DNA of 36,333 nt, from positions 1-36,333 of the IMG/VR virus record IMGVR_UViG_3300020205_001023. One strand, 5' to 3'. The notes under the pieces are model-generated. The model worked only from the letters and a program-made list of their open reading frames with translations. It did no database searches and was not told the DNA's origin. A program made the position numbers and the translations under genes. This stretch comes from a virus. Positions 14,702-32,108 of this stretch are shown piece after piece (the stretch's first letter is position 1; every line of letters begins with the position of its first letter).

Positions 14702-17700
14702 ATGGCTGAATTTAAACTAGGTAGAATTAGATTTGTATGGAAAGGTCAGTGGACCGTTGGAACTCCATATCTAATAGATGACGTGGTAAGTAATGGCGGA
14801 AAGAGTTATATTTGTGTTGTAAACCACACTGCATCTAGCTTATTCGGCACTGACCTAGACTTCATTCCAACAAAATGGAACATTGTATCAGATGGTACAC
14901 GTTGGTTGGGCGACTGGTTACCAGAAACTTATTACAACCCTGGTGCAATTGTAAAATATGGAGCACTAGTATACATCTGTAAAACAGGACATACGTCTGC
15001 AACGTTTGAAAGTCCAGGCTTCATAGGACTTGAAGTTGACATTTTAAAGTGGGACTTGTACGCTACTTCTTTTAATTGGACCGGTGACTGGTCTACTGAT
15101 ACTAGATATTTAAAGAATGATTTTGTTGTTTACGGCGGTAGTGCCTACGTATGTAAGACAGGACACATTAGCGATGCTAGTGCAGTTGCTGGCCTCGAAA
15201 TAGATGCTAACAAATGGGACATTTTTAATCAAGGTGTTATATATCTAGGTGATTGGAGTGGCCTCGATGTTCGTTACAAAGTAAATGATCTAGTAAAATT
15301 TGGTGCAGATCTATGGATATGTACAGCTTATCACGAGTCATCAACTACATTCGATGAAACAAAATGGGAAATATTTGTAAACGGATTCGAATTTGAAAAC
15401 TCATGGGATAACTCTACAGTCTATCAACCAGGCGATGTTGTAACTTATGGTGGTTATTCATATATTTCTAAAACTAATCATGTTAATAAACAACCTACTT
15501 CAAATGCAAGTGATTGGGATGTATTTACAACTGGATTTAATTTCATAGGCGAATGGATAGTTACTACTAACTATCGAATCGGTAATGTAATTCGTCATGG
15601 CAACTATACCTATGTTGCTAAAATTGATAGTCTTGGACAGCTACCTACAAATACAACCTATTGGTCTTTATTAAATACTGGCTTCCGTTGGACAAGTACT
15701 CCTCAAACATATCTTGCAGTAGCAGCTACTAGTGTAACAGGTCTAGGATCAGCCGCAAAATTTGATGTCACTCGATCAGGTACAGTTTATTCTGTATCAA
15801 TTGCAACTGGCTTCGGTGGAATTGATTATCAAATTGGAGATACAATTAAAGTATTAGGATCACTAGTTGGCGGAACAACCCAAGCTAATGATATTACTAT
15901 TACAATTACTGATGTTGATGTTGGAGAAATTTTAGACTTCACATGGGTCGGTGGATCAGTAACTTGGACTACTGCCACGTCGTATCTATTAGGCGACGTA
16001 GTTACATTCGGAGCCAACAGTTATGTATGTATCGACCCTCATACTGCATCTGGACCATCTAGACCAGATGCAGACCTAACTGGTGCATATTGGAATTTAT
16101 TAGCAGCAGGTGCTGAATTTAATATTCTAACAGAGACTGGAGATTTAGTATACTACGGTGAAAATGGTCCGACCAGATTACCAGTTGGTACTAATGGCCA
16201 AGTGTTACGTTCACAAGACGGGTTTCCTGTATGGGCAAACTACGGCCTTATCAATAACTTAGTATATGTTGGTCCATTAGGACGAGATGTTGCATATCCA
16301 GCAGCCGGTGCAACCATTGATCAACCTTGGAAATCTGTAAGATTCGCAACTAAGCAGATTGAAGAAGGCTACTTAACTCCTAATGCTAAAACATTACTAG
16401 CTAAAAATAAACAATTTATTATGAAAGAAATTACCAACTGGGTAATTTATACATATACTGTTAATATATCTAGTTCAGATAGTACTTCAGACTATTTTAC
16501 TTGTACTAGCACCGCTAACTTAGTTGCAAACATGCCAATTGAATTTAGTGGTACTACTGGCGGGGTAGTAGCTGGACAACAGTATTATGTTAAAGCTGTA
16601 TTCAGTCCAACACAGTTCTCAATCTCTGAAATACAAGCCGGCACGTTAAAGCAACTAACAACTAGTGCTGTTGCAATGACCGGAACATTATCTTATGATC
16701 AAGATTTCTGCGAACGTGATGTAGGATTAATTGTTGAAGCACTAAAATATGATATTGCTCGTGGCGGCACATCAAAGACTACAGCCGCAGCTAAAGCCTA
16801 CTATACACCTGCAGGTAATGCATATATCAATAGTAACTTTGGTACACAAATTATTCAAACAGTTGCGGCGTACACTTACTTAGGCACATTAATTAACAAT
16901 GTATTAAACAATGTACCTTGGAGAAATTATCAAGTGTTTAACGGAGTCACAGACGGTGTGACTCAAATTATAGATACAACATTAACAGTAGAAACTGGCG
17001 TTACTGCTAGAGTAACTGAGCTATTATCTATAATTACTACAGGAATTACTGCAGGATCTGTTTCAGCTATTCCTACAGCAATTTATCCAACTACTACAAT
17101 CTCAGTCAAGACTGGAACATTTAATGAAGTGTTGCCAATGACTATTCCAGAATATACAGCAGTAGTTGGTGACGAACTACGTAGTACAGTTATTCAACCA
17201 GCAACTGCAAATACGTTGTTAGTTAACGATAAAGAAAAAACTACATCTGCATTAACTCGTATTAATTCTATTGCTAGTGATCTAGTACAAAATATTACGA
17301 TTACTCCAACTTCAGGAAATACTGAAGTACAAAAGTATGTCAACGGCTATGCAGGTAGTTCTGTAGTAACTACAGCAGTTGGTACAAAAACAGCAGTAGT
17401 TACAACAATCTTATCCGGTGGATTAGGATCAGTTCCTGCAACAGTGCTTACTGATCCAACTAGTTATGATTCGGGATATTTTAATGCTCGTAGACTAGTA
17501 TACTCTAACAAAGCATTTTTACAAGCTGAAGTTAGCGCATGGATTGATGCACAAATTGCTGGAAATATTTCTCCATTTGTTGGGTTTGTGTATGCCGGTG
17601 CTGGCCGCACATCTTGCGAGCGTGATGTTGGATATATCATCGATGCACTAAGATATGATTTAACCTATGGTGGAAATTTAGAAACTAGCGTAGCTGCTAG

Positions 17701-20700
17701 ATCATATTATTCATTCGGAGTGTTTGTTGAAACTGGTGAAAAAGCTCAAGCACTTGCAGTGCAAACATACTTAAAATCAATCATTGGTTATATTGTACAA
17801 GGTGACAATGCAGGCTGGACTAAAACTCCTGCTAATGCTGAGTTACAAGACGATAGCGGAACCCCGGGTTCTCTAGCAGCAGCAACATTTGCTGAAGATA
17901 GACTACAAGAAATTTACGATACTATTGATACTGGAGTTACTCCAACAACTATTGAGCCTAGTGTATCTTGGGTAGCTACTGGCTTAGTTTCTGCAAAAAA
18001 TGCAATACAATCTTTGAAAGCAGGTATTCAAGCAGGTTCAATTGAGTATATTAGTACAAAATATCCTAGCTTAGATTATGACGAAGTTACTTGTGCTCGA
18101 GACGTTGGTTATATTGTAGATGCAGTAAGTTATGACGTTATGTTTGGTAGCAATTTCCGATCTATCAAAGCAGGTATGAGCTATTATAGAGCTATTGCAT
18201 CTGCTCAAACAGTAATAGCTGATCAGCTAGATGCTACATTAGATATTGTATCATATATTGATACTGCTATTAAACAGATTACTAATGGATATACAGGGTC
18301 AGTTGGAAGCACAACCGCAGTATCGCGTATTGAAAGCTCTGCAAGCACAATAATTGATATTGTGTCTAGTGGTTTAGGATCTGTACCTACAGAAGCGATG
18401 CCAAATCCTACAGGATTTGATACTAACTACTTAAATGCTAAAACACAAATTATTAATAATTATGCATTTATTAGAGCTGAAATTGCAGCATACCTAAACA
18501 CCTATTATAATGCTATTTGGGTAGGGTTAGGAGCAACCGGACAAGCTGGATGCGCTAGAGATATCGGTTATATATTAGATAGTGTACGTTACGATATTAC
18601 ATATGGCGGCAATACTCAGTCATTAATTACTGGTAGTGCATATTATTCTAACTATAACTCTACAATAGAGTTAACTGAAATTGAAGCTACAGTTGCAGCT
18701 TATGCAAGATTAAAAACTATAGTTGGTCAAATTGCACAAAAAATTGCAGTAACAATCACACCTGGTAACGCAGTATCTCAAGTAGTTACCGGTACTGGTG
18801 ATCTCGTAGGAACTGCGGCAGCATTTGCACAAGATCGTGTACAAGATATTATTGATTGGGTTGACACTGGTGAAGCAAACGCAACCATTGCTCCTGATGT
18901 TACTTGGGCTGCTGCTGAATTGCAAACGGCATTTGCAGAGTTACAATTAAAGAAAACTGAAACTATTTCAGATGTGGTTCAGTGGGTATATAAAAATCAT
19001 CAAGATTTAAACTTTAATGAATCTTTGTGCTCACGTGATACAGGTTACTTGATTGATGCACTAAGTTATGATCTAGTAACCGGTAGTAATTTTGCATCTA
19101 TAACAGCGGGTCGTGCATATCTTCGTGCAGTTCCTTCTGCACAGTTGGTTATTACTGAACAACGTAAGGCTGAAATCGGCGCTATTAATTTCTTAAAATA
19201 CAAAGCAAAACATATTGCCGCAGTGGGCGCAGTTGCACAAATTGATGCTCTTATCACAGATATTACTGGATATATCAATGGCGGATCAATTCCTCGAGTA
19301 CAGTGGACAAATCCAACAACTATAGTTAGTGGATATGCTGCTGCTACAGTATTATTAAAAGATAATAAAGAATTCATTAAAGCTGAAATCGCAGCATGGA
19401 TTGAAGTACAAATTGGACTAGGTACTAGTGGGTTCGTGGGATTACAATTTAGCAGATCAGCATGTGAACGTGATGTAGGATATATTGTAGATGCACTAGT
19501 ATATGATTTAACCTACGGGTACGGTGTAGGCGGCACTGGAAATCTCGCAGTAAGACAAGCAGGGCTAGCATACTATTCACAATTAACATCAGTATTACAA
19601 ATAGATGCAGGCGATAAAACTGCTACGCTAGCCGCATATGCAAGACTAAAATCAGTAGCACAGTCTGTAATGCAAGATTTAGATGTTACTGAATCTGCTG
19701 GAAATACAGTAACACAAGTACGAGCAACAACAGGTCAGACTGTCGGATCTGGCGCATCTGCCACATCAGCAGGTACATTGATTGATGTGATTACAACCAC
19801 TATTAATACTGGCACAGCTCCGGCTGAAGTAGCTCCTGGAACTTCATGGGTGGTTGCTGGACTAGTAATAGAAAATGGATCGTTGCAAACTAATAGAGCT
19901 ACAGTTCAAGGTCAAATAACATCATTTATCACAGAAAAATATCCAACACTGGTATATGATTCTGCAACATGTGAACGCGACATTGGCATTATCATTGATT
20001 ATGTTGGTTACGACATGATGTTTGATAGTAACTTCTTAACTATTACAGCAGCAAGAAGTTATTTTAGAGCACAAGCTTCTCTAGTATTAGGCGGACAAAA
20101 AGCAGCAACAATTGCTTCTTTTAGATATTTAAAAACTCTACTACTTGCAATTGTAGAAACTAACGCAACTGCTAGACGTAGATTAAAAGTGTTGATGGAT
20201 ATTATTATTGAGACTATGGTCAACGGTATTGGTGATACTCCTGAATTTACAGGAACTATTACTTATAAAAATGACATTGGTAGATTTAATGCAGGCGAAA
20301 TTATTAGAATAAACAAAGATTTCTTAGCAGCAGAAGCAACATCATGGATTACGCAAAACTATGGTGGCACAGTAACTACTACTACCGCGGCAACTGATAG
20401 ATTTACTACTAGTGCAGTACACAATTTAACAGTTGGTGATCCAGTTATATTCTCCGGAACTGTAATTACCAGCAGTGGCATTACCATTGGAGATATTTAT
20501 TATGTACGTGCTACTCCAACTACCACTACATTCACAGTCGACAACGGATTAGAAATTGTTGATATTAGTGCTAACGGCACTGGTAGTATGACTGTTCGAT
20601 ATGCGTTTGACGATGCATTGTGCCGTCGAGATATGAAAGAATACTTAGATGCAATCATATATGATTTAAGTTATACAGGTAATTACAAGTCACTCAGAGC

Positions 20701-23700
20701 TGCACAAATTTATCTAAATGCAGTAACTGGATCAACTACACAAGATATGTTCTTGGTAAGCAATGCTACTGGTTTGCGTAACTGTACACTAAGCGGATTA
20801 AACGGAACACTAAGTGAAATTAACGACTTTGGTACAAAACGTCCAACTGCTGGTGCGTATGTTGCACTAAATCCAGGATTTGGCCCTAACGACACTAACG
20901 TATGGGTGCAAACAAGATCACACTATTCACAAAACGTAACTATGTTTGGTACAGGATGTACAGGCGCTAAGATTGACGGAGCACTACACGCAGGCGGCAA
21001 TCGCTCAATGGTTAAAAATGACTTTACTACTATTATGAGTGATGGATTTGGTGTATGGTGTACTGGTGCTAACAGTTTAACAGAACTTGTTTCAGTGTTT
21101 AACTACTATGGTTATGCAGGATACATGGCAGAGCTAGGTGGACGTATACGTGCTACTAACGGTAACAGCTCATATGGTACATTTGGTGTTATTGCTGAAG
21201 GTACTGACACATACGAGCAACCAATTTATGCAGTAGTTGATAATCATGCTCAACAAGCAGTAGTAGCAAATACATTTACCGATGCCGAAAATATTATTGT
21301 CCGTCTAGAGTACAGCAATGCTGGAACAAATTATACGAACGTAGATATTGGTGTAAGCGGTGACGGCGTTAATGCTATTACTATTGGGGATGAATTTAGA
21401 GACGGCGGAGTTTTTGAAACAAGAATCTTTGACCTAGACGACGGTAACGATTATGGTGGTACTAACTATACTAACGCAATTAATGCTGCTCAGGGCGGCG
21501 ATGTAGGGTATATTACTATTGCTGCTACAGATGTATCGTTAAGTACAGCATATCCTACTATGAGAATTCAACTTACTGCTGGTACAGGAGTTGGACAGTA
21601 TGCTAATATTTTAACATATAACAATGGTACAAAAATTGCACAGATTTATAAAAATAATTTTGCAACCCTTACTGTTACTGCAACTGCTGTTACTAACAAT
21701 TTATTAACAGTTGCGAACACTGCTACATTATATGCAGGCATGCCAATTTACTTAACTAGTACAGCTAACGGACTAACTGCTAATACAGTGTATTATATTA
21801 GAACAGCTAATTTTTCAACTACACAATTTAGTGTAAGTTTAACAGGTGCAGCAGGTACTGCTGTTACTATTACTACTACTGGTTCTGTATCTATATCATT
21901 GCTAGCGGCAGGATGGGATCACGCAATTCCAGGATTTACTCTAACTAATGCAGTTGACCTTACTACAAGCTACTCAATTGAACCAAGAATTAGTTACACA
22001 CATCCTGGCTATACTGCTACTGCAAGATCATTAATTGGATCAACTACCTGGGCAGCAGCAGCTTTTGGAATATCTCGTTATGTTGCTATTGCTAGTACAG
22101 GCACCACTACTAACTATTCGTTAGATGGAAAAACATGGGCAGCAGGCGGCGCATTATCAGCTAGTGCAACTTGGTCAGACGTGGTATTTGGAGGCGGCCA
22201 AGGTGCTGCCGCAACAGCAACAGTCGGTGGCATGGGAGGCGCAGGAGCAACTTTTGCAGTAACAATGGGTACTGTGAATTCTACAGGTGCTCCGGGAGTC
22301 GACCAAGTTGTGAGTGTGCGTATTATAGACGGTGGTTATAACTATACAACTCCGCCAACTATTGTATTCACTCCAACTGTTGGCGGTGCCGGAGCTGTTG
22401 CTACGTGTACTGTCCTAAACGGAAAAGTTGATAGTGTAACTGTTGAAATTAATGGATCTGGATATACGCAGCCTCCAACGGTATCAGCAGCAACTGATAG
22501 AGTAACAAAATTAACAGTGTCAACTTGGGGCAGAGGATATACTTCGGCACCTACAGTAACAATTTCTCCTCCAGTGTCTGCTACTGCATGGAGCTCGGGC
22601 GGCGCTGCAACTTTAGGAACATACTATTCATATGTTAATACTGGAGTTATTCCTAGCAGAACTAATTATTATCTAGCAACCGCTAGTGGTACATTTAGCT
22701 CAACAGGCCCAACATTCACTAGCGGTACCGGTTCATCTGGCACATATGGTGTTGGATTAACATTCGTAGGAACACTAGCTACAGGTACCGCAGTACTAAG
22801 TAACACTGGCGTTAGCTCTATTACAATTGGAGCAAGCGGCGGAGTAGGATATACTGCAACTCCTGCAGTTACAATTGTGGATCCTTTAGCTAAGTTTGTT
22901 GCAATTGCTAACGGTTCCACTTCAATGTCATACTTACCAGCAACTGCGGCTGCAGGTGCAGCATGGACTGCTGGCACAGCAATGCCAACAACTACATATG
23001 TATCTATTGCCTACGGCAACGGAATATATGCAGCAGTAGGCGGCACTGGTACCAGCACAGGTGCATCAAGTACTAACGGTACTGCATTTACAGTGCGATC
23101 ATTACCTAATTTAGGATCTGGTAGTTATTCCGCAGTAACATACGGCAACGGATATTTTGTTGCAATATCTACAGGTACAACACTAGCCACTGCAAGAAGT
23201 GCCAATGGCCAAACATGGGTAGCAGGTGGAAACTTACCGGCAGGATTTACTACTGGAACAAGCGTTGCCTACGGCAACGGACGCTTTGTAGCAATTGCCA
23301 GTGGCGGTACAAAAACTGCATACAGTATTGACCAAGGCGTGACATGGGTAAGCTATGTAACAGGATTACCATCAACACAATCCTGGTCAACTATTAGATA
23401 CGGTCAAGGATTATTTGTAGCAATAGCAACAAGTTCAACAGTATGTGCAACCAGTGAAGACGGTATCTATTGGGTAGAAAGAACAATGCCAGGTAGTTCA
23501 ACTAACTGGAAAGGTTTAGCATTTGGTAATGTTGGAAATACCCCATTATGGGCAGCAGTTTCTGCTACTTCTGGCACAACCGCAGCATCGTTACGTACTG
23601 GTGCTAGAGCGTCAGGACGCATGAGGGCAGAGTCTGGCACACTAACTGAAGTTCGTATGATAGAGCCAGGATCTGGATACTCAGCAGGCGTGGTAACAGC

Positions 23701-24883
23701 CACTACCGATACAACTAACGTAATCACAGTTAACGACACTACTAACCTAGTTGATTTACAGCCAGTAATATTTACAAACTGTAACGGAAGTGGTCTTGTA
23801 ACAGAAAAACTATATTATGTTATTGGCGCTACGATAGTTACAAATACCAGCTTTAAAGTTAGTCTAGTAGCCGGTAGTGGTACCCCTGTAGTATTAGTTA
23901 CTACAACAGGGCTAACTGGAACTTACCGAGCAGGTCCAATTGTAACACAATTTGATCCAGGTAAGGTTGTTTCGGCTGCACTAAATCCTCGTACTAATAT
24001 AGGTGTCCTAGGTAATCCTAGCTTTAGTAATCGAGGAAGTACTTACACTACTGCAACTACAGTTGCAATCGGTGATGGTCATGCAGATCTATTCCAGCCT
24101 GGTACATTTATTGCAGTAAGAGATCTATACGAAGTGCCACAGGCAGGTTCTAATGTAGTATTTGGGTCACTAACTGGAACATGGTATAAACTTGTTGCAG
24201 TTACTAACGTATTAGGTGATGCAGGAGAATACACTGCTAACTTCCAGATTAGTCCAGGATTAACTGTGTTAGAAGCTCCCATCGATGCAGATCCTATTAC
24301 TACTACATTAAAGTATAGTCAGGTCCGTTTAACTGGTCATGATTTCTTGTATATTGGAACTGGTAATCAAGCTGAAACTAATTATCCATATGTTGATCCT
24401 ACTACTGCTAGTATTGCAGTGCAAACTAATAGTTCAGGTGGTGGACGAGTGTTCTTTACATCAACTGACCAAGACGGTAACTTCAACGTTGGTGGATTAT
24501 TTGGAGTACAACAGTCAACAGGTACTGCTACATTAAATGCTGATGCATTTAACTTGTCAGGATTACAGAGCTTGCAGTTAGGTTCATTAAACATTGGTAT
24601 CGGCAGTGCAGTTATTAATCAGTTCTCAACTGATCCGTACTTTACAGCTGATAGCGATAATATTGTACCGACACAGCGAGCAATTAAAGCATATATTACA
24701 GCCCAAATTGGTGGCGGACAAAGCTCATTGAACGTAAATACACTGACTTCGGGTGTTATATACGTAGCAAACGACTCGATCTCCACAACCAGTGGCGGTC
24801 AGTTAAATATAAAATCAAAGATGTATTTCACAGGTGGAATTGACGGGGCTCCCGTTGCACTTGGATTCTTCTTACAACGATAA
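14702..24883 (+). CDS. Giant modular tail-fibre/adhesin protein (3393 aa)
   Basis: It is the paralogue of the preceding gene and starts with the same motif (FKLGRIRFVWKGQW against FKIGRLRYTWKGVW). Domain order by residue: seven chitin-binding-like repeats with an inserted module before the last; a linker GTNGQVLRSQDG; a beta-helix entry at about 520; a long stretch of alpha-helical CxRDVGYIVDA repeats (about 650-2010); a beta-helix core (TQDMFLVSNATGLRNCTLSG, about 2013-2200); YYV modules; propeller-like repeats (about 2450-2960) interrupted by a GSGYTxPPTV block at 2500-2730; and the shared C-terminus (STDQDGNFNVGGLF, NIVPTQRAIKAYI, GAPVALGFFLQR). An AAAGGA ribosome site supports the start. 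It is most likely a second long fibre or a partner in a mixed fibre. At 3393 residues it dominates the window. No protease or hydrolase motif was recognised. Confidence 0.85.
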   Translation: MAEFKLGRIRFVWKGQWTVGTPYLIDDVVSNGGKSYICVVNHTASSLFGTDLDFIPTKWNIVSDGTRWLGDWLPETYYNPGAIVKYGALVYICKTGHTSATFESPGFIGLEVDILKWDLYATSFNWTGDWSTDTRYLKNDFVVYGGSAYVCKTGHISDASAVAGLEIDANKWDIFNQGVIYLGDWSGLDVRYKVNDLVKFGADLWICTAYHESSTTFDETKWEIFVNGFEFENSWDNSTVYQPGDVVTYGGYSYISKTNHVNKQPTSNASDWDVFTTGFNFIGEWIVTTNYRIGNVIRHGNYTYVAKIDSLGQLPTNTTYWSLLNTGFRWTSTPQTYLAVAATSVTGLGSAAKFDVTRSGTVYSVSIATGFGGIDYQIGDTIKVLGSLVGGTTQANDITITITDVDVGEILDFTWVGGSVTWTTATSYLLGDVVTFGANSYVCIDPHTASGPSRPDADLTGAYWNLLAAGAEFNILTETGDLVYYGENGPTRLPVGTNGQVLRSQDGFPVWANYGLINNLVYVGPLGRDVAYPAAGATIDQPWKSVRFATKQIEEGYLTPNAKTLLAKNKQFIMKEITNWVIYTYTVNISSSDSTSDYFTCTSTANLVANMPIEFSGTTGGVVAGQQYYVKAVFSPTQFSISEIQAGTLKQLTTSAVAMTGTLSYDQDFCERDVGLIVEALKYDIARGGTSKTTAAAKAYYTPAGNAYINSNFGTQIIQTVAAYTYLGTLINNVLNNVPWRNYQVFNGVTDGVTQIIDTTLTVETGVTARVTELLSIITTGITAGSVSAIPTAIYPTTTISVKTGTFNEVLPMTIPEYTAVVGDELRSTVIQPATANTLLVNDKEKTTSALTRINSIASDLVQNITITPTSGNTEVQKYVNGYAGSSVVTTAVGTKTAVVTTILSGGLGSVPATVLTDPTSYDSGYFNARRLVYSNKAFLQAEVSAWIDAQIAGNISPFVGFVYAGAGRTSCERDVGYIIDALRYDLTYGGNLETSVAARSYYSFGVFVETGEKAQALAVQTYLKSIIGYIVQGDNAGWTKTPANAELQDDSGTPGSLAAATFAEDRLQEIYDTIDTGVTPTTIEPSVSWVATGLVSAKNAIQSLKAGIQAGSIEYISTKYPSLDYDEVTCARDVGYIVDAVSYDVMFGSNFRSIKAGMSYYRAIASAQTVIADQLDATLDIVSYIDTAIKQITNGYTGSVGSTTAVSRIESSASTIIDIVSSGLGSVPTEAMPNPTGFDTNYLNAKTQIINNYAFIRAEIAAYLNTYYNAIWVGLGATGQAGCARDIGYILDSVRYDITYGGNTQSLITGSAYYSNYNSTIELTEIEATVAAYARLKTIVGQIAQKIAVTITPGNAVSQVVTGTGDLVGTAAAFAQDRVQDIIDWVDTGEANATIAPDVTWAAAELQTAFAELQLKKTETISDVVQWVYKNHQDLNFNESLCSRDTGYLIDALSYDLVTGSNFASITAGRAYLRAVPSAQLVITEQRKAEIGAINFLKYKAKHIAAVGAVAQIDALITDITGYINGGSIPRVQWTNPTTIVSGYAAATVLLKDNKEFIKAEIAAWIEVQIGLGTSGFVGLQFSRSACERDVGYIVDALVYDLTYGYGVGGTGNLAVRQAGLAYYSQLTSVLQIDAGDKTATLAAYARLKSVAQSVMQDLDVTESAGNTVTQVRATTGQTVGSGASATSAGTLIDVITTTINTGTAPAEVAPGTSWVVAGLVIENGSLQTNRATVQGQITSFITEKYPTLVYDSATCERDIGIIIDYVGYDMMFDSNFLTITAARSYFRAQASLVLGGQKAATIASFRYLKTLLLAIVETNATARRRLKVLMDIIIETMVNGIGDTPEFTGTITYKNDIGRFNAGEIIRINKDFLAAEATSWITQNYGGTVTTTTAATDRFTTSAVHNLTVGDPVIFSGTVITSSGITIGDIYYVRATPTTTTFTVDNGLEIVDISANGTGSMTVRYAFDDALCRRDMKEYLDAIIYDLSYTGNYKSLRAAQIYLNAVTGSTTQDMFLVSNATGLRNCTLSGLNGTLSEINDFGTKRPTAGAYVALNPGFGPNDTNVWVQTRSHYSQNVTMFGTGCTGAKIDGALHAGGNRSMVKNDFTTIMSDGFGVWCTGANSLTELVSVFNYYGYAGYMAELGGRIRATNGNSSYGTFGVIAEGTDTYEQPIYAVVDNHAQQAVVANTFTDAENIIVRLEYSNAGTNYTNVDIGVSGDGVNAITIGDEFRDGGVFETRIFDLDDGNDYGGTNYTNAINAAQGGDVGYITIAATDVSLSTAYPTMRIQLTAGTGVGQYANILTYNNGTKIAQIYKNNFATLTVTATAVTNNLLTVANTATLYAGMPIYLTSTANGLTANTVYYIRTANFSTTQFSVSLTGAAGTAVTITTTGSVSISLLAAGWDHAIPGFTLTNAVDLTTSYSIEPRISYTHPGYTATARSLIGSTTWAAAAFGISRYVAIASTGTTTNYSLDGKTWAAGGALSASATWSDVVFGGGQGAAATATVGGMGGAGATFAVTMGTVNSTGAPGVDQVVSVRIIDGGYNYTTPPTIVFTPTVGGAGAVATCTVLNGKVDSVTVEINGSGYTQPPTVSAATDRVTKLTVSTWGRGYTSAPTVTISPPVSATAWSSGGAATLGTYYSYVNTGVIPSRTNYYLATASGTFSSTGPTFTSGTGSSGTYGVGLTFVGTLATGTAVLSNTGVSSITIGASGGVGYTATPAVTIVDPLAKFVAIANGSTSMSYLPATAAAGAAWTAGTAMPTTTYVSIAYGNGIYAAVGGTGTSTGASSTNGTAFTVRSLPNLGSGSYSAVTYGNGYFVAISTGTTLATARSANGQTWVAGGNLPAGFTTGTSVAYGNGRFVAIASGGTKTAYSIDQGVTWVSYVTGLPSTQSWSTIRYGQGLFVAIATSSTVCATSEDGIYWVERTMPGSSTNWKGLAFGNVGNTPLWAAVSATSGTTAASLRTGARASGRMRAESGTLTEVRMIEPGSGYSAGVVTATTDTTNVITVNDTTNLVDLQPVIFTNCNGSGLVTEKLYYVIGATIVTNTSFKVSLVAGSGTPVVLVTTTGLTGTYRAGPIVTQFDPGKVVSAALNPRTNIGVLGNPSFSNRGSTYTTATTVAIGDGHADLFQPGTFIAVRDLYEVPQAGSNVVFGSLTGTWYKLVAVTNVLGDAGEYTANFQISPGLTVLEAPIDADPITTTLKYSQVRLTGHDFLYIGTGNQAETNYPYVDPTTASIAVQTNSSGGGRVFFTSTDQDGNFNVGGLFGVQQSTGTATLNADAFNLSGLQSLQLGSLNIGIGSAVINQFSTDPYFTADSDNIVPTQRAIKAYITAQIGGGQSSLNVNTLTSGVIYVANDSISTTSGGQLNIKSKMYFTGGIDGAPVALGFFLQR
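14730..16110 (+). repeat. Seven chitin-binding-like repeats, second giant protein
   Basis: The units match those of the preceding paralogue, for example WLGDWLPETYYNPGAIVKYG and WTGDWSTDTRYLKNDFVVYG, each closing with YxCKTGHxS or similar. Between units six and seven a foreign module of about 92 codons (TTGGAC at 15688 to TTGGAC at 15964, in frame) is inserted. The module holds G-x-G-x-x-A-x-F-x-V and YQIGDTIKVLGSLVGG and is also present near 9870-10080 and 35420-35610. Confidence 0.75.
16640..20740 (+). repeat. Helical CxRDVGYIVDA repeat array (eight units, alternating A/B types)
   Basis: The motif C-x-R-D-x-G-x-x-x-D-A-x-x-Y-D-L/V-x-x-G-x-N-x-x-S recurs with its Cys codon at 16709, 17615, 18092, 18551, 19028, 19463, 19970 and 20621. 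Units 2, 4 and 6 are led by NKxFLxAExxAWI (type B); units 3, 5 and 7 by KYPxLxYDxxT (type A). The A+B pair forms a super-unit of about 310 residues (936 and 912 bases between successive B units). The sequence is alpha-helical in character, unlike the beta-rich flanks. The previous giant has only one unit (near 8296), without the Cys. Confidence 0.85.
22199..22891 (+). other. Inserted block of GSGYTxPPTV repeats inside a propeller blade
   Basis: The propeller motif normally reads YGNGKFVAI. Here the blade reads WSDVVFGGG, then about 231 residues, then KFVAIANG; removal of 22199-22891 restores FGGGKFVAI in frame. The inserted block carries four units of the form G-x-G/N-Y-T-x-P-P-T-V-x-x-x-P (GGYNYTTPPTIVFTP, GSGYTQPPTVSA, GRGYTSAPTVTISPP, GVGYTATPAVTIVDP), a short Ig-like repeat seen in bacterial and phage surface proteins. 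Confidence 0.7.
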
Positions 24884-24898
24884 TTTTGGAGATATAAA

Positions 24899-25219
24899 AT
24901 GGCAACAGGAAGATTAGGGGTTTTTGCAATCCCACAAACAACAGCTACTACAGTATACACAGTACCTACAGGTTATTATACTGTATGTAACGTTACAATA
25001 GTAAACAGAAATGCAGCAGCAATTACTGCAAGACTTGCACTATCAGCATCTGGCTCACCAAGTTCAGAAGAATGGATCGAATACGACACTGTTATTATTC
25101 CTAATGGTGTATATGAGCGCACTGGACTAGTAATGCAAGCAGGGCTAAATATTGTAGTATATACAAGCGCAGCCTCAGTTGGCTGCACAGTGTATGGTAT
25201 TGAAACTTCAACATCGTAA
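24899..25219 (+). CDS. Small virion protein with a single ERTGLV beta domain
   Basis: The product has 106 residues; a TTGGAG ribosome site lies just upstream, 15 bases after the stop of the giant fibre gene. The sequence is one small beta-rich domain: VCNVTIVNRNAAAITARLAL, then EEWIEYDTVIIPNG, then YERTGLVMQAGLNIVVYTS and a closing VYGIE. The same domain occurs twice in tandem in the protein at 26242-26889 and more distantly in the product at 5770. It has no signal peptide or transmembrane segment. Probably a fibre-associated or decoration protein; the function is inferred only from position and domain sharing. Confidence 0.65.
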   Translation: MATGRLGVFAIPQTTATTVYTVPTGYYTVCNVTIVNRNAAAITARLALSASGSPSSEEWIEYDTVIIPNGVYERTGLVMQAGLNIVVYTSAASVGCTVYGIETSTS

Positions 25220-26241: not shown

Positions 26242-26889
26242 ATGGCAATCGGAATTAATTCAAGAATTGATCTTTCAGCGACGACATATACTACTATTGC
26301 AACGCAACCCCCTTCAGGAAGAGCACAGATACTAACTGTATCTTTGGTAAATCGTGGCACTAGTGATGGAACATTTCGTGTAGCCATTGTTAATAATGGA
26401 TCAACTACTCCTAGTGCTGGTGATTTTATAGATTATAATGAACCATTGGCTGCTAAGGCTACATTTGAAAGAACTGGTCTAGTTATTCAAAACGGTCAAA
26501 CAATTGTTGCATATTCAACAGTGGCTAGTGTATCAGCAGTAACCTACGGATTAGAAGATTCTGTAGTCAATGCAAGTACTGGCGCTTTCAAATTTAACCT
26601 AGCTGCCGCCACATGGACACAGGCCACTGCTGGTCCGGCTTCAGGCCGATATCAAACAGTTGCATTGTATTTTTCAAATTTTACAGGCGGCACCTCTACT
26701 ATACGGGTATGCATTTCTACTACATTTAACAGTCCGGCAGCAGCTGATTATATTGAATTTGATGTTCCATTAGCTACTGGTGGTGAATTAGAAAGAACAG
26801 GTATCGTTATCGGAAACGGTCAACAAATTGGCGTATACTCTAGTGCAGCAGGTGTAAACTGTGTGGCTATGATTGTAGACGACCAATAA
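26242..26889 (+). CDS. Virion protein made of two tandem ERTGLV domains
   Basis: The product has 215 residues and an AAGGA ribosome site in the 33-base gap upstream. It consists of two copies of the domain that forms the whole 106-residue protein at 24899. Copy one spans about residues 10-107 (FIDYNEPLAAKATFERTGLVIQ...TYGLED) and copy two about 118-215 (YIEFDVPLATGGELERTGIVIG...VDD). Both keep the E-R-T-G-L/I-V-I-x-N-G-Q core and a closing acidic end. It probably arose by tandem duplication and fusion. Likely a structural fibre connector or decoration protein; no enzymatic motif is seen. Confidence 0.65.
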   Translation: MAIGINSRIDLSATTYTTIATQPPSGRAQILTVSLVNRGTSDGTFRVAIVNNGSTTPSAGDFIDYNEPLAAKATFERTGLVIQNGQTIVAYSTVASVSAVTYGLEDSVVNASTGAFKFNLAAATWTQATAGPASGRYQTVALYFSNFTGGTSTIRVCISTTFNSPAAADYIEFDVPLATGGELERTGIVIGNGQQIGVYSSAAGVNCVAMIVDDQ

Positions 26890-26895
26890 TTTTTT

Positions 26896-26903
26896 GATAA
26901 ATA
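26896..26903 (+). promoter_or_regulatory. Candidate late promoter octamer (GATAAATA) before the adhesin array
   Basis: GATAAATA sits 21 bases before the ATG of the first glycine/cysteine-rich gene, in a 35-base gap. A second, weaker match, TGTAAATA, follows at 26905-26912 and leads into the AAGGA ribosome site. The element would allow the six-gene adhesin/chaperone array to be transcribed as its own unit, ending at the terminator at 30586-30608. Confidence 0.4.
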
Positions 26904-26924: not shown

Positions 26925-27674
26925 ATGGCAGGAGTAAAAATAATTTACGATACAACATGTATAAGTACGTCAGATACAACATGTACCTGGGTCGTGCCAT
27001 CTGGCGTGTGCCGTGTAACTTTTGAAATATGGGGCGGTGGTGGCGGCGGCGGAAATAAAGGTACTAATTGTGACTGCTGTAGTCGTGGAGGTCCGGGATC
27101 GGGCGGCGGCTATTCAAAAGTTACAATTGATACTGTGCCAGGGTCATCGTATTCTGTCGTAGCAGGCAAAGCCGGCGTATCTAGTCAAGGATATGGAAGC
27201 TATTGCGGTATTTGCTGTGATGGTTGCACTGGCGGAACTAGTTATGTAAGTGGTACTGGACTAACTAGTTTTTGCGCAACAGGCGGCTACGGCGGCAAGA
27301 GCGATTTTACTGCAAATTGTTACTCACATTGCGGTTGCAATTTCTTCACTCAGGTTCCAGGTTGCGGATACGGTACTAATGCTACATTTGCTAAAGGCAT
27401 GAGTGGAATCACTACCCGATTTGGTGATGATAACCCCTACAATATTGTTAATCTTGCAGGAGGTGCTGGTGGACCTGGTGGAGGTGCTGGCGGTGTGAAT
27501 ATATTTGGTGGATACAATAATTCATCAGGTTATTGTGCCTTGATCGGTGAACACACTTTTCACGGACGTATCCCAGGCGGCGGCGGAGCTGGGTCTGGCG
27601 GCCACAGCGGTTGTGACTGTACTCCATACCCGTCAGGTCGAGGCGCACCAGGTCTTGTTAAAATTACATACTAA
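26925..27674 (+). CDS. Glycine/cysteine-rich adhesin-like protein 1
   Basis: The product has 249 residues. The N-terminal strand region ends in TWVVPSG and VTFEIWGGGGGGG (residues 21-43), the signature of the glycine-rich domain in phage and surface proteins. The rest is built of GG-rich turns with 18 cysteines, including a CDCC cluster at 49-52, CGICCDGC near 79-86, CYSHCGC, and a CDC near the C-terminus. Shared landmarks with the products at 28195 and 29363 are GGPGSGGGY, TSFCATGG, PGGGGAG and the terminal LVKITY strand. Glycine-rich tips in T2-type gp38 adhesins form polyglycine sandwiches; a similar receptor-binding tip is inferred. It is followed 11 bases later by a putative chaperone gene. 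Exceptional cysteine content for a phage fibre tip suggests disulfides or metal binding. Confidence 0.7.
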   Translation: MAGVKIIYDTTCISTSDTTCTWVVPSGVCRVTFEIWGGGGGGGNKGTNCDCCSRGGPGSGGGYSKVTIDTVPGSSYSVVAGKAGVSSQGYGSYCGICCDGCTGGTSYVSGTGLTSFCATGGYGGKSDFTANCYSHCGCNFFTQVPGCGYGTNATFAKGMSGITTRFGDDNPYNIVNLAGGAGGPGGGAGGVNIFGGYNNSSGYCALIGEHTFHGRIPGGGGAGSGGHSGCDCTPYPSGRGAPGLVKITY

Positions 27675-27685
27675 TAAGGACCATC

Positions 27686-28195
27686 ATGCCAATTACACAT
27701 AAAATTTTAGTAAGTAACGATACTGGTAAGGTAATACATCCTGCATACGAACTTAGTCATCCTCGACCATGTCCACCAGATTGCACATGGATTGAGTTAG
27801 CAGAAGGCGAAGCATTATATAATCATTACTGTATGAATCCTCCAGGGGATGTATCACATTTAGATTTAAATGAAATATATTGGGACTTTGAAGGTAGCGG
27901 TTGGGTAGAAGTACCTACTACCAGCCTACCATCATACGAAATGAGTAAATTCACAAGAAACGAATTTTTAAAAGGCTCCGATATCAAAGTTGCTACAATT
28001 ACTGATCCAGTAGAATTAGCAGGGTGGATATTATATAGACAACAGTTGCGTGATATGTTTAAAGATTTACCAGTTGATTATGATTGGAACATGTTAGTAT
28101 ACCCACGTAGACCAACTGATATCGCAGCATTAAAAGAAAAAGCAGCCGCCGGCGACGCTGAAGCTGCTGCAATAGTATTAAGGGATAATTTATAA
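27686..28195 (+). CDS. Putative tail-fibre assembly chaperone 1 (Phage_tail_APC-like)
   Basis: The product has 169 residues; AAGGA at 27676-27680 serves the ATG. The N-terminal half ends in IYWDFEGSGWVEV. The C-terminal half has FTRNEFLKGSDI, then LAGWILYRQQLRDMF and a W...YPRRP segment. The R-x-x-L-L/K-x-x-D ... W-x-x-Y-R-x-x-L-R-D ... P pattern is that of the phage tail assembly chaperone family (Pfam Phage_tail_APC). A short Ala-rich helix closes the protein. Its stop codon overlaps the next start by one base (TAATG), so it is translationally coupled to the second adhesin-like gene. It probably helps fold or attach the glycine-rich protein encoded just before it. Pairing is inferred from order. 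Confidence 0.65.
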   Translation: MPITHKILVSNDTGKVIHPAYELSHPRPCPPDCTWIELAEGEALYNHYCMNPPGDVSHLDLNEIYWDFEGSGWVEVPTTSLPSYEMSKFTRNEFLKGSDIKVATITDPVELAGWILYRQQLRDMFKDLPVDYDWNMLVYPRRPTDIAALKEKAAAGDAEAAAIVLRDNL

Positions 28196-28887
28196 TGGGA
28201 CGATTTATTAGTGTAACTGACGTTAGCGTAGCATTAAAATCTTGCAGATTGAATGTTGTAGGATCGTGTTGCTGTTTGTGGACAGTACCTGCCAATGTTA
28301 CTAGCGTAACATTTGAAGTGTGGGGTGGTGGCGGCGCGGGTGGCGCTAAGTGCTGCTGCCGCTGTGAATCTGCTAGCGCAGGCACAGGAGGCGGCTACGC
28401 ATTAAAAACTGTTGCAGTCACGCCCGGAGCACAGTATACTATCTGTGCAGGACCTGGCGGTGAACAGAGATATTGTGCAGTTGGTGGCAATAGCTATGGA
28501 TGTGCCGGCGGCACAAGTTATGTTAATGGATCAGGACTATCTAACTTGTGTGCTGTAGGCGGTTGCGGCGGTTGCTGGATTGGTTGCAATAGCTCAGGAT
28601 GCTACTGCTGGGGCGGTGCTAGTTTTGGCGGCGATGTGTGTCTATATGGAGGAACAGGCCAGTATGTAGCAATATGGGAAGGATTGTGTCAAATGGGTGT
28701 AGGCGGACACGCACCATTAGGTGGTGGCTTAACTGGAAAACACAATGATCATTGCTGTCGAATGGGAACTGCTGGATGCTGGGGATCATTTCCAGGCGGC
28801 GGCGGCACTCAAGGCCACGGATGCTGTTGTGACTGCTGCTGGTGCAATGGCGGCGGCGGCAACGGTTTAGTAAGGGTACACTTTTAA
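28195..28887 (+). CDS. Glycine/cysteine-rich adhesin-like protein 2
   Basis: The product has 230 residues. It is the most cysteine-rich of the three, with 28 Cys, about one residue in eight. Clusters are CCC at 25-27, CCCRC at 53-57, a series between 115 and 140, CC before RMGTAGC, and CCCDCCWC near the end. The frame is VTFEVWGGGGAGG at 38-50, then GGGYALKTVAV, LSNLCAVGGCGGC, PGGGGTQGHG and the terminal GNGLVRVHF, which matches GNGLVRIHF of the third copy. An AAGGGA ribosome site precedes the start and the ATG overlaps the previous stop. There is no signal peptide, so it is a cytoplasmic virion part that meets oxidising conditions after lysis. A receptor-binding tip is the likely role. Confidence 0.7.
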   Translation: MGRFISVTDVSVALKSCRLNVVGSCCCLWTVPANVTSVTFEVWGGGGAGGAKCCCRCESASAGTGGGYALKTVAVTPGAQYTICAGPGGEQRYCAVGGNSYGCAGGTSYVNGSGLSNLCAVGGCGGCWIGCNSSGCYCWGGASFGGDVCLYGGTGQYVAIWEGLCQMGVGGHAPLGGGLTGKHNDHCCRMGTAGCWGSFPGGGGTQGHGCCCDCCWCNGGGGNGLVRVHF

Positions 28888-28888
28888 A

Positions 28889-29347
28889 ATGACTACAATA
28901 TATTATTCTATAGTTGAACGTGCAACTGGTATTATGGAGTTTGGTAGATCAAATGTGATTGATCATACTGATCGACCACTCTCTGGCTCACTAGCATATG
29001 CACCATTAAATGATCTATTAGTAAGAGCACTAGTATCAGTAGATCCCGAAGATCATCACGATCTTCAGCCTATTGATTTTAAGCAAACTCATTGGGACTT
29101 TTCAACAAGTTCGTGGGTAGTTGTATGGGATACAATTCCAGCTGACCACGCATCTGTTGATCAATTGAACACAAAGTTAACACAACGTCAAGCACTAATT
29201 GATGCAGCAACTAAGAAAGCTAAAATGCCAGATATTAGCCCTAAATTTAAAGCTGTAGTAGATGCATTTATTGCAGAAGTATCCAGTATCAATATAACTG
29301 CTGAAAATGTAAAAGACGTAGTTTTACCAGCAGAAATACCAAAATAA
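28889..29347 (+). CDS. Putative tail-fibre assembly chaperone 2
   Basis: The product has 152 residues and starts one base after the preceding stop, so it is coupled to the adhesin-like gene. The layout resembles the other two putative chaperones: a beta-rich N-terminal half ending in HWDFSTSSWVVVWD, then a helical C-terminal half (KLTQRQALIDAATKKA, KFKAVVDAFIAEVSSI) and a final VVLPAEIPK. It lacks the full YRxxLRD element seen in the proteins at 27686 and 30079, so the assignment rests on position and the W-x-F-x-x-x-x-W motif. A role as fibre chaperone or as part of the tip is plausible but less certain than for its neighbours. Confidence 0.5.
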   Translation: MTTIYYSIVERATGIMEFGRSNVIDHTDRPLSGSLAYAPLNDLLVRALVSVDPEDHHDLQPIDFKQTHWDFSTSSWVVVWDTIPADHASVDQLNTKLTQRQALIDAATKKAKMPDISPKFKAVVDAFIAEVSSINITAENVKDVVLPAEIPK

Positions 29348-29362
29348 GTAGAGAATATAAAT

Positions 29363-30067
29363 ATGCCAAGATATTATCAACCAGTAAGTAGTGGTACCAT
29401 TACATCAACAACAATTTGTGACTTTAAAGAGCCCGGCAACTACTCATGGACAGTACCAGCTGGACAAACATGGGCAACATTTGAAATTTGGGGTGGAGGA
29501 GGCGGCGGTGGAGCCAAGTGCTGCTGTGATTGTTATCATGGTGGGCCTGGTGGAGCAAGTGGCGGCTATGCAATGCAACAGATTTCAGTTACCCCTGGCG
29601 GAACATATGCAATTTGTGTAGGCTACGGCGGGATGGTTCCTACCGTTGGAAATTGCACACTACATTGGTGCTGTTATGGCAATGATGGTAGCACTACATA
29701 TGTAACCGGTAGCGGTCTAAGTAACTTTTGTGCTACCGGTGGCTCAGGCGGACACAACGATTGTTATTACTATTGCGGATGCACTAAACCTCCAGGAATG
29801 GGCTACGGCGGCATTGTTAACAACTGCGGTAGCCCTGGGTATGGCGGCCACACTACAAACATGTGTAGTAACATTATAGCATACGGTGGATCAACTGCAA
29901 GCGGTGGCGGAAATTATACTACAGCTGATCATTGCTGTAGAAGTTGTATGATAGCGTGTGCCGGCCAATATCCAGGTGGCGGTGGCGGAACAACGCTGCC
30001 ACATACTAACTGTTGCTGCGCCCAAGGTGGCGTTGGCGGTAACGGTCTAGTAAGAATACACTTTTAA
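29363..30067 (+). CDS. Glycine/cysteine-rich adhesin-like protein 3
   Basis: The product has 234 residues and 22 cysteines. It shares the whole plan of the other two copies: YSWTVPAG, ATFEIWGGGGGGG (39-50), AKCCCDC at 51-57 (AKCCCRC in copy two), GGYAMQQISVTPGGTYAIC, LSNFCATGGSGG, CCRSCMIAC, PGGGGG, a CCC cluster and the terminal GNGLVRIHF. Its N-terminal 20 residues differ from the other copies, as expected if each tip docks on a different partner or site. The start ATG lies 15 bases after the previous stop. Gly-rich regions use many GGC/GGT/GGA codons and are locally GC-rich in an AT-rich genome. Confidence 0.7.
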   Translation: MPRYYQPVSSGTITSTTICDFKEPGNYSWTVPAGQTWATFEIWGGGGGGGAKCCCDCYHGGPGGASGGYAMQQISVTPGGTYAICVGYGGMVPTVGNCTLHWCCYGNDGSTTYVTGSGLSNFCATGGSGGHNDCYYYCGCTKPPGMGYGGIVNNCGSPGYGGHTTNMCSNIIAYGGSTASGGGNYTTADHCCRSCMIACAGQYPGGGGGTTLPHTNCCCAQGGVGGNGLVRIHF

Positions 30068-30078
30068 TCGGATTTAAC

Positions 30079-30561
30079 ATGACTACTTACGCACTTATTT
30101 TTAATAACGACGGTACTTTGTATAATTCACATGTATTCAGAGATGCAGAGATTCCTTCAGTAGAACTATTGCCACCTGACTGTGGATTAGCCACTTTTGA
30201 CGAGACCACTGCTAATTTTGCATTTTTGTATGCATACTTTGTAGAAGATACAAACAAAATAACTAACGGACACATACCACAGTCAATGGGCGGAGCAACC
30301 TATAACTTTGAAACAAATACATTTACATTTGCTCTAAGACCACCCGAACTGTCATTACTTGACCAAGTCAGGACAGAGCGCAACATGAGAATTGCAAAGA
30401 CAGATGACCTAGTATACGTTCCAGATTACCCAGCAGGCTACATGGATCAAATTCTAGCATATCGTGCTGCTCTACGAGACATTACTAATAATATGGATCC
30501 ATCATGGACTGATATAATTCATGTTCAATGGCCAGTAATGCCTGCATTTATAGATGTTTAA
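30079..30561 (+). CDS. Putative tail-fibre assembly chaperone 3 (Phage_tail_APC-like)
   Basis: The product has 160 residues and the best family match of the three. The N-terminal half contains TYNFETNTFTFALRP. The C-terminal half reads VRTERNMRIAKTDDLVYVPD, then ILAYRAALRDITNN and VQWPVMPAF. The R-x-x-R-N...T-D ... Y-R-x-A-L-R-D ... W-P-x-x-P series is the Phage_tail_APC signature. It is the last gene of the + strand virion operon. The stop at 30559-30561 overlaps the end of the convergent minus-strand gene by 14 bases and is followed by an intrinsic terminator 24 bases later. Probably the chaperone for adhesin-like protein 3. Confidence 0.75.
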   Translation: MTTYALIFNNDGTLYNSHVFRDAEIPSVELLPPDCGLATFDETTANFAFLYAYFVEDTNKITNGHIPQSMGGATYNFETNTFTFALRPPELSLLDQVRTERNMRIAKTDDLVYVPDYPAGYMDQILAYRAALRDITNNMDPSWTDIIHVQWPVMPAFIDV

Positions 30562-31078
30562 CCCAATCTAAGAATGTATCAAACTGGGTCCACTTGCTGG
30601 ACCCTTTTCCTATTTTAACAGCAGCGGCCTTGACCTTGACGGCAGCAGTTAAGTCAGCATCATTGGTGCTAATCACTGGTATATCTTTCCACTTGACTCC
30701 GATATTTTCTGTTACTCTATTAAACATTCCGGGATTGGGTACAACAAATGGATCATTACGATCTACTCCCGGGCACCAATATATACCATTAATTGTAACA
30801 CCTGTACTTTGTATAAAATTCTCAACGGCTTGATTTAGAGATTGAAAATGTTCAAAGGACAACTGTCTTCCCTTAAACTGATTAATAAACAATACAACAG
30901 AGTAATTTTTATTTGCTAAAACTTTTAATCCATCTATGGCAGATTCTAAAAATTCAATCTTACCAGAGTGAACATCGGTTATTTTGGGATCAATTAGTGT
31001 GTTGAACGGAAAAATACCAACAGTATTACCTGTGGTAGTTAAAATTGGTGTATCTAATAAATGTTTAAATCTTGACAT
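30548..31078 (-). CDS. HAD-like protein related to GmhB phosphatases, catalytic residues apparently lost
   Basis: The product has 176 residues; an AAAGGA site precedes the ATG. The order of motifs matches D-glycero-D-manno-heptose 1,7-bisphosphate phosphatase (GmhB): IEFLESAIDGLKVLANKNYS, LFINQFKG (family: TNQSG), GIYWCPGVDRNDP (family: GIYYCPHHP), VPNPGMFNRV (family: RKPxPGM), and STNDADLTAAVKV (family: GDxxxDMxAA). However, the N-terminal F-L-D-R-D-G-T loop reads IFPFNTL at 22-28, so both catalytic Asp are missing, and the motif III Lys is also absent. It may be a pseudoenzyme with a binding or regulatory role, or a very diverged phosphatase. It stands alone on this strand, convergent with the virion operon and divergent from the GT9 operon. 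Confidence 0.6.
   Translation of the reverse strand: MSRFKHLLDTPILTTTGNTVGIFPFNTLIDPKITDVHSGKIEFLESAIDGLKVLANKNYSVVLFINQFKGRQLSFEHFQSLNQAVENFIQSTGVTINGIYWCPGVDRNDPFVVPNPGMFNRVTENIGVKWKDIPVISTNDADLTAAVKVKAAAVKIGKGSSKWTQFDTFLDWVKHL
30586..30608 (+). terminator. Intrinsic terminator of the + strand virion operon
   Basis: GGGTCCA (30586-30592), a CTTGC loop, TGGACCC (30598-30604) and TTTT (30605-30608) make a classic GC-rich 7-base stem with a T-run, 24 bases after the stop of the last adhesin/chaperone gene. It lies inside the coding sequence of the convergent minus-strand HAD-like gene. Confidence 0.75.
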
Positions 31079-31176: not shown

Positions 31177-32106
31177 ATGTATAAGATTGTGTTTATGAAT
31201 GGCGGCGCAGGCAGGATGATATCAGCTCTTCCCGCATTGGAAAGATTTATTATTGAAAATCCAAATGGTTACATTATAACTGAAGCCGGATTAGATTTTG
31301 TCTGGGGTAACAGACTCTTACAAGATAGGACCTTTGATGTTAATACCAAGGGGTTATTTGAAAACATTATTCGCGGCGGTGAAATTATCAGCCCGGAACC
31401 CTATAGAGATCATGATTATTACAATCAAAAAATTAGCATTGCACAATCGTTTGATAAGCTAATTAACGGATCTGTTCGAGATAATTTTGATTATTGTCCG
31501 ACTATTATTCTTAATAAAGAAGAAGAACTTAACGGAGTATCTGCACTAGCACATGCCCGCAATGAACATAAAAAAGCAAAAACAATTGTTGTTCAGCCGT
31601 TTGGTCGCAGTTCAGTTAATGATACCGAACTAAAAGTAGTTGCTGATTACAGCACACGTAGCTTAGAAATTAAAACATATTTTGCAATTGCAAAGGCATT
31701 ACGAGAAAATTATAATGTTATTAGTATGAGCGAATTTGAAATCCCAGGCGATGAGTGGTCAGTAAATCCTAAGCAACTAACCCTACGTAAATGGGCAGCT
31801 ATTATTGAAGCTGCCGATTATTTTGTTGGATGTGATAGTGTAGGACAACATTTAGCCTACGCTATGAATAAACCCGGTAGCGTCATACTCGGCAGTACAT
31901 TTGCTGTTAATGTTAGTTACCCTAAATATTTCAATATTATTGAAAAAGAAGGATTTGAAAAGAGATATAGTCCTATTAGAATGTCAGAAGCGGCATGCTA
32001 TGAAGCGGATCGTCTTAACGATCTAGCATTAGAATTTAATGATAAAGAAACTGATAAAATTGTAAGAAATATTTTATTAGATATAAAAAACAAAATTGGA
32101 GAATAA
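31177..32106 (+). CDS. Glycosyltransferase family 9-like (heptosyltransferase-like) protein
   Basis: The product has 309 residues. The N-terminal Rossmann start MYKIVFMNGGAGRMISALPALERF resembles the G-x-x-G-D-x-x-x-x-x-P-A-L opening of ADP-heptose:LPS heptosyltransferases, with the usual Asp absent. The second half has IVVQPFG at 137-143 and YFVGCDSVGQHLAYAMNKPGSVILGST (about 215-241), the donor-site D-S-x-x-x-H-x-A-x-A-x-x-x-P-x-x-x-x-x-G-x-T motif of GT9. The length is close to the family's usual 320-350. First gene of a three-gene operon with its own sigma-70 promoter. It would transfer a sugar to a glycan or protein; donor and acceptor are not evident. The neighbouring HAD protein resembles a heptose-pathway phosphatase, consistent with a heptose theme, but that protein may be inactive. 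Confidence 0.65.
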   Translation: MYKIVFMNGGAGRMISALPALERFIIENPNGYIITEAGLDFVWGNRLLQDRTFDVNTKGLFENIIRGGEIISPEPYRDHDYYNQKISIAQSFDKLINGSVRDNFDYCPTIILNKEEELNGVSALAHARNEHKKAKTIVVQPFGRSSVNDTELKVVADYSTRSLEIKTYFAIAKALRENYNVISMSEFEIPGDEWSVNPKQLTLRKWAAIIEAADYFVGCDSVGQHLAYAMNKPGSVILGSTFAVNVSYPKYFNIIEKEGFEKRYSPIRMSEAACYEADRLNDLALEFNDKETDKIVRNILLDIKNKIGE

Positions 32107-32108
32107 GA

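Follow-up and report, generated by a model that had tools for sequence, protein, structure and literature searches.

The window analysed here, from a marine T4-like phage, is a virus record of 36,333 bases from IMG/VR (IMGVR_UViG_3300020205_001023), which contains, at positions 26925-30561, a set of three genes for glycine/cysteine-rich proteins (p1, p2 and p3) alternating with three genes for small proteins (S1, S2 and S3). The identification of these six products as fibre tips and their chaperones is well supported, and three tip genes were found to be the norm in this phage group. The balance of evidence leans slightly towards p1-p3 being non-interchangeable parts of one distal fibre assembly, in its simplest form a pseudo-threefold heterotrimer, for which we infer trimerisation, hetero-association, one-to-one pairing with chaperones and receptor binding. 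An earlier note on this DNA had described the same alternation of three Gly/Cys-rich and three small genes, and all six consecutive open reading frames (ORFs) on the + strand, with lengths of 249, 169, 230, 152, 234 and 160 amino acids (aa) in the order p1 S1 p2 S2 p3 S3, are present as it had given them:

26925..27674, + strand: p1, glycine/cysteine-rich fibre-tip protein, 249 aa, 18 Cys, 63 Gly; PF21722 E-value 7.2e-12; orthologue clade support 100
27686..28195, + strand: S1, Phage_tail_APC-type fibre assembly chaperone with a C-terminal extension, 169 aa; hhalign to S3 99.0%; orthologues match PF16778
28195..28887, + strand: p2, glycine/cysteine-rich fibre-tip protein, 230 aa, 28 Cys; PF21722 E-value 3.9e-6; clade support 85
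28889..29347, + strand: S2, diverged chaperone paralogue, beta domain and long helices, 152 aa; hhalign to S3 97.3%, to S1 95.8%; AlphaFold2 predicted local distance difference test (pLDDT) 82
29363..30067, + strand: p3, glycine/cysteine-rich fibre-tip protein, 234 aa, 22 Cys; PF21722 E-value 1.4e-13; best PDB match of the model 7ypx_A
30079..30561, + strand: S3, Phage_tail_APC chaperone, 160 aa; PF16778 E-value 2.7e-10, 40.4 bits against a cut-off of 26.6

The start of p2 overlaps the stop of S1 (TAATG at 28193), as the same note had read it.

To evaluate the number of copies, which the earlier note had suggested surveying in marine phage genomes, relatives were collected by two IMG/VR alignment scans and from cultured phages and rescanned for further copies, and near-duplicates were removed. 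Loci were taken as complete when the set lay away from the locus ends, which gave 55 non-redundant loci. Three tip genes were found in 48 of these 55 loci, two in five and four in two. Among the sets located close to a locus end, 23 had three tips, three had two, one had one, and one longer-protein lineage had five or six. Single-protein IMG/VR scans with S1, S2 and S3 returned the near-identical contig alone, and an alignment query was needed to find relatives; a DNA-level search among named phages revealed none. This independent contig is 99.99% identical to the window across 16 kb including the set, without rearrangement. In a related lineage with longer tips (~300-450 aa, starting with MAKN or MAKY; loci L107, L102, L139, L119 and L134), four to six tandem copies are accompanied by a single chaperone-like gene.

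The number of chaperone genes was found to vary from one to three per locus. With G standing for a tip gene and s for a chaperone gene, the commonest arrangements were GGGs (50 loci), GsGsGs (13), GsGGs (7) and GsG (7), counts that predate the correction of four extra diverged loci. In most relatives, a single chaperone gene is present for three tip genes. Because the chaperone number varies while the tips stay at three, the conserved unit is the tip triplet and not the adhesin-chaperone cassette proposed earlier, and three tips are not the exception that they had been taken for. The cultured cyanophages S-CAM1, S-CAM3, S-SSM7 and Sf-FS3 resemble the window in having exactly three Gly-rich genes behind a long fibre gene, followed by a small gene, in the same carbamoyltransferase neighbourhood; unlike the window, they have the GGGs arrangement with one chaperone gene. 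Their tip and small genes are all annotated as hypothetical, and Pfam matched neither the chaperone nor two of the three tips of S-CAM1. The arrangement in P-SSM2 is GsG.

All three tip proteins exceeded the cut-off of the Gly_rich_2 family (PF21722, 24.3 bits), namely with 46.2 bits for p1, 27.5 for p2 and 51.8 for p3. The identity to p1 is 37% for p2 and 40% for p3, with W/G/C columns in common. Modeling of p3 using AlphaFold2 from a 26-sequence alignment led to a model with a pLDDT of 82 and a predicted template modelling score (pTM) of 0.81, whose top PDB match over the whole length was the cyanophage Pam3 fibre 7ypx_A (E-value 4e-8, probability 1.00, template modelling (TM) score 0.60). 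The next matches were tail-tip chains of the mycobacteriophage Bxb1 and the TNF-like/glycine-rich region of ALK and LTK. The p3 model contains both the TNF-like beta domain and the glycine-rich lattice of a Pam3 gp24-type tip, and p1 and p2 were assigned to this fold by homology alone. No counterpart of the long N-terminal alpha-helix of gp24 was found in the p3 model, where residues 5-14 have a pLDDT below 50. A PDB sequence search with p3 or S3 gave nothing useful, and the only PDB match of the p1-p3 profile was a low-complexity one to RemZ.

The tip family, the chaperone family and the tip-chaperone pair are already known from Pam3. There, gp24 is a trimeric tip with a distal glycine-rich lattice proposed to bind the receptor, and its partner gp25, which combines a beta-sandwich at the N terminus with a helical domain for trimerisation at the C terminus, binds gp24 in a 3:3 complex and was not detected in virions (PMC9608196). 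The window set shares with gp24/gp25 (7ypx) the TNF-like and glycine-rich tip fold, the small chaperone built of a beta domain followed by helices, and adjacent tip and chaperone genes, although no significant sequence match of the window proteins to gp24 or gp25 was found. It differs in that one tip gene and one chaperone make a C3 homotrimer in Pam3, whereas three of each are present here, and in that the window tips are strongly cysteine-rich and are encoded by the last part of a T4-like fibre operon. The tail wing brush gp33 of Bxb1 (9d93), the second-best fold match, is itself a Gly_rich_2 protein; however, both gp33 and the tail spike gp29 are present in 9d93 as three identical chains each and belong to a siphophage tail tip, that is, to another type of phage. 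The gp38 of phage S16, with which Pam3 gp24 has been compared (PMC9608196), is similar in being a glycine-rich distal tip of a T4-like long tail fibre. It does not appear in the list of PDB fold matches of the p3 model. The S16 gp38 adhesin is encoded by a single gene.

Comparison of profiles with hhalign showed that S1-S3 are true paralogues, with 99.0% (E-value 5e-18) for S1 and S3, 97.3% for S2 and S3 and 95.8% for S1 and S2, against at most 1.3% for column-shuffled control profiles. The earlier note had given two of the small proteins the Phage_tail_APC signature. S3 passes the PF16778 cut-off itself, while the window S1 alone had no PF16778 match and was placed through its family, in which 19 of the 20 S1/S3 members match (E-value up to 0.01). 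S2 alone had no Pfam match and is linked to the family via the S1/S3 profiles. As judged from these profiles, S1 and S3 belong to Phage_tail_APC and S2 is a diverged relative. The AlphaFold2 model of S2 (pLDDT 82, pTM 0.50) starts with a beta-rich half and continues into two long helices, which agrees with the layout proposed before and with the Tfa/gp25-like domain arrangement of Pam3 gp25. No significant PDB fold match was found for the S2 model; among viral models, tail fibre assembly proteins were matched, but weakly, and the single match at an E-value of 5e-4 was an uncharacterised 225-aa protein of P-SSM2, with TM scores that were low. In loci L012, L015, L034 and L098, S1 (91-94 aa) lacks the beta domain and consists of the helical APC domain only, and p1 is retained there.

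The Gly_rich_2 and Phage_tail_APC assignments, the match of the p3 fold to the Pam3 tip and the published Pam3 pair (PMC9608196) thus support the adhesin/chaperone reading. That the Gly-rich proteins are instead structural fibre segments or virion decoration, and the small proteins minor tail parts, is very improbable in our view; in its favour, Gly_rich_2 does occur outside phages, in one control genome.

The history of the three copies was analyzed using a tree of 36 non-redundant tip triplets, in which the window clade comprises 10 genomes. In this clade p1, p2 and p3 are each monophyletic (supports 100, 85 and 100), and roughly every second position is different between orthologous tips (mean distance 0.52-0.55). 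Since each position forms its own clade there, p1, p2 and p3 are old, separate, non-exchanging lineages. The whole tree required 15 changes of position label, against 51 after shuffling. In the tandem class, the positions cluster partly, and a small group (L059, L066 and L069) clusters by genome. The ratio of non-synonymous to synonymous substitution rates (dN/dS) in closer pairs was 0.06-0.30 for all six genes, which indicates purifying selection, and therefore none of the copies is decaying. The set is also among the fastest-diverging parts of the operon: between the window and locus L008, identity is ~56-59% for the tips and ~41-42% for S2/S3, compared with 76% for the fibre and 83% for the carbamoyltransferase.

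Distance correlations among p1-p3 were 0.80-0.86, and the residual correlations peaked for p1-S1 and p3-S3, which weakly suggests that these are cognate pairs. In addition, corresponding loop residues have changed in each of the three copies in some lineages of the tandem class, as in L018 (CSWDRC...NWDNG) versus L070 (CSCNRC...RCCGQGG). Synonymous codons at the shared-residue sites were at background (0.51-0.53 versus 0.54-0.55), and the shared loop changes therefore suggest coordinated selection on the three tip subunits of this class, not recent copying at those sites. All tips are markedly rich in cysteine, with averages of ~22 Cys for the window clade and ~26 for the tandem class, and several cysteines are near-invariant. 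Such a content is unusual for virion proteins assembled in the cytoplasm; metal binding or late disulfides are possible roles.

In the assembly that we favour, p1-p3 would be receptor-binding tips of the Pam3 gp24 type, with a TNF-like beta domain bearing a glycine-rich distal lattice, and S1-S3 would grip the nascent tips by the beta domain and trimerise by the helical domain. The three tips would be produced together and used together on the same fibre, and a trimer with one copy of each would carry three different binding faces at one fibre end. The heterotrimer is the simplest reading because there are exactly three non-interchangeable paralogues in a trimer-forming family, with one shared chaperone gene in most relatives. 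The near-fixed number, the position-locked orthology and the coordinated change all speak for it, as does the heterotrimer formed by gp35, gp36 and gp37 of the mycobacteriophage Mysterious (PMC13252515). The latter is a precedent for three consecutive phage genes giving one heterotrimer, although it is a siphophage baseplate bowl protein and was not shown to be Gly-rich or a fibre tip. Several observations weigh on the other side. The solved phage relatives found are homotrimers (Pam3 gp24 and Bxb1 gp33); lineages with two (P-SSM2 type), four and five to six tips exist, for which a strict one-of-each trimer needs further assumptions; p1, p2 and p3 have dissimilar N-termini in the window clade, which may also reflect three different docking sites; the coordinated loop changes rest on few independent events; and there is some gene conversion in the tandem class (within-genome codon identity 0.58 versus 0.48 expected). 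Gene conversion as the full cause of the shared residues was rejected from the background level of synonymous codons. The wider proposal, that a large group of marine T4-like phages builds a heterotrimeric tip from three ancient co-evolving paralogues, with a chaperone trimer that is homo-, 2+1 or hetero- by lineage (GGGs, GsGGs, GsGsGs), is a tentative one, to which we give a little under an even chance.

The serious rival to the heterotrimer is three separate homotrimeric tips on one virion, each with its own chaperone and on different mounts (fibres, side branches or stacked), co-displayed and directed at different receptors. We consider this possible and on the whole somewhat doubtful. It agrees with the homotrimeric state of the known family members (PMC9608196) and with the N-termini, each of which is typical of its position within the window clade; the GsGsGs order points to a separate chaperone for each tip in the window, the residual distance correlations favour cognate pairs, and two-, four- and six-copy lineages are easily accommodated. 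However, it leaves the near-constancy of three tips across the complete loci and the single chaperone gene per three tips in most of them unexplained, and coordinated residue changes in three copies are not expected of independent trimers unless they have a common ligand. The idea of three simultaneous tips, raised in the earlier note, is compatible with the data. The other idea of that note, a reservoir of spare adhesins for switching receptors via recombination or a change of expression, now appears highly unlikely. Tandem paralogues could recombine, and the gene conversion signal in the tandem class would be in line with this, but the number is near-fixed, the three positions of the window clade have kept their identity without exchange among them although their sequences have diverged widely, and purifying selection acts on each of the six genes. 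No sign of switching was seen in copy number, tree, selection or the unrearranged near-identical contig; no search was aimed at inversion repeats or an invertase.

Two further features of the window concern the ends of the set and its likely mount:

30586..30604, + strand: intrinsic-terminator-like hairpin followed by TTTT; -12.3 kcal/mol, z-score -3.35
14702..24883, + strand: large tail-fibre protein, 3393 aa, CBM_5_12 repeats near the N terminus; phrog_9851 tail fibre, E-value 4e-155

The hairpin lies behind the last gene, in keeping with the terminator proposed for the set, and sits within the 3' end of a convergent gene (30548-31078, - strand). This gene has a PNK3P-phosphatase-like match slightly under the cut-off, and its 3' end overlaps the end of S3. 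The octamer GATAAATA at 26896 had been read as late-like; it was rejected as a sign that the set is a separate operon, as 92 sites with at most one mismatch occur in the window against 115 expected, i.e., not above chance.

Upstream of the set, the window encodes a baseplate-wedge-like protein and very long tail-fibre proteins, and long fibre genes were also found upstream of the tip genes in related loci. The fibre protein at 14702..24883 is likely the shaft partner of the tips. Both giant fibre proteins (6524-14650, 2708 aa, and 14702-24883, 3393 aa) have several CBM_5_12 matches near the N terminus, and the larger one also contains repeated CERDVGYIVDAL-type segments. Just upstream of the tips there is a second small duplication, in which a 215-aa protein resembles two tandem copies of the domain of a 106-aa protein (26242-26889 and 24899-25219, respectively; both match phrog_11338). 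Downstream are a GT9-like gene (FxNGGAGRxxxSxPAxE), a carbamoyltransferase and a 2OG-Fe(II) oxygenase. The first two (window 31177-33881) are located close downstream of the set in most loci examined, with all arrangements including those of P-SSM2 and S-CAM1 (e.g., L008, L018, L029, L086, L089 and L090), and may modify host or virion glycans.

In the literature searched, limited to open-licence papers, neither a conserved triplet in marine T4-like phages nor a heterotrimeric Gly-rich tip was described. A virion proteome has been reported for S-SM1, a possible carrier of the set (Sullivan et al. 2010, PMC3037559), and selection on an 'adhesin component' block, which may be homologous to the tip set, has been mentioned for S-PM2d (PMC9910659). 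Little is known about the receptors and fibre tips of T4-like phages in the sea, and the genes concerned are labelled hypothetical in S-CAM1, S-CAM3, S-SSM7, Sf-FS3 and P-SSM2. Recognising tips and chaperones among them singles out candidate genes for receptor binding in viruses that are abundant in the ocean. The near-constancy of three tips poses a testable structural question, mixed or separate trimers, which bears on the evolution of host range. If the tip is a heterotrimer, one fibre end would have three binding faces, and a change of host range would need three tips to be kept compatible.

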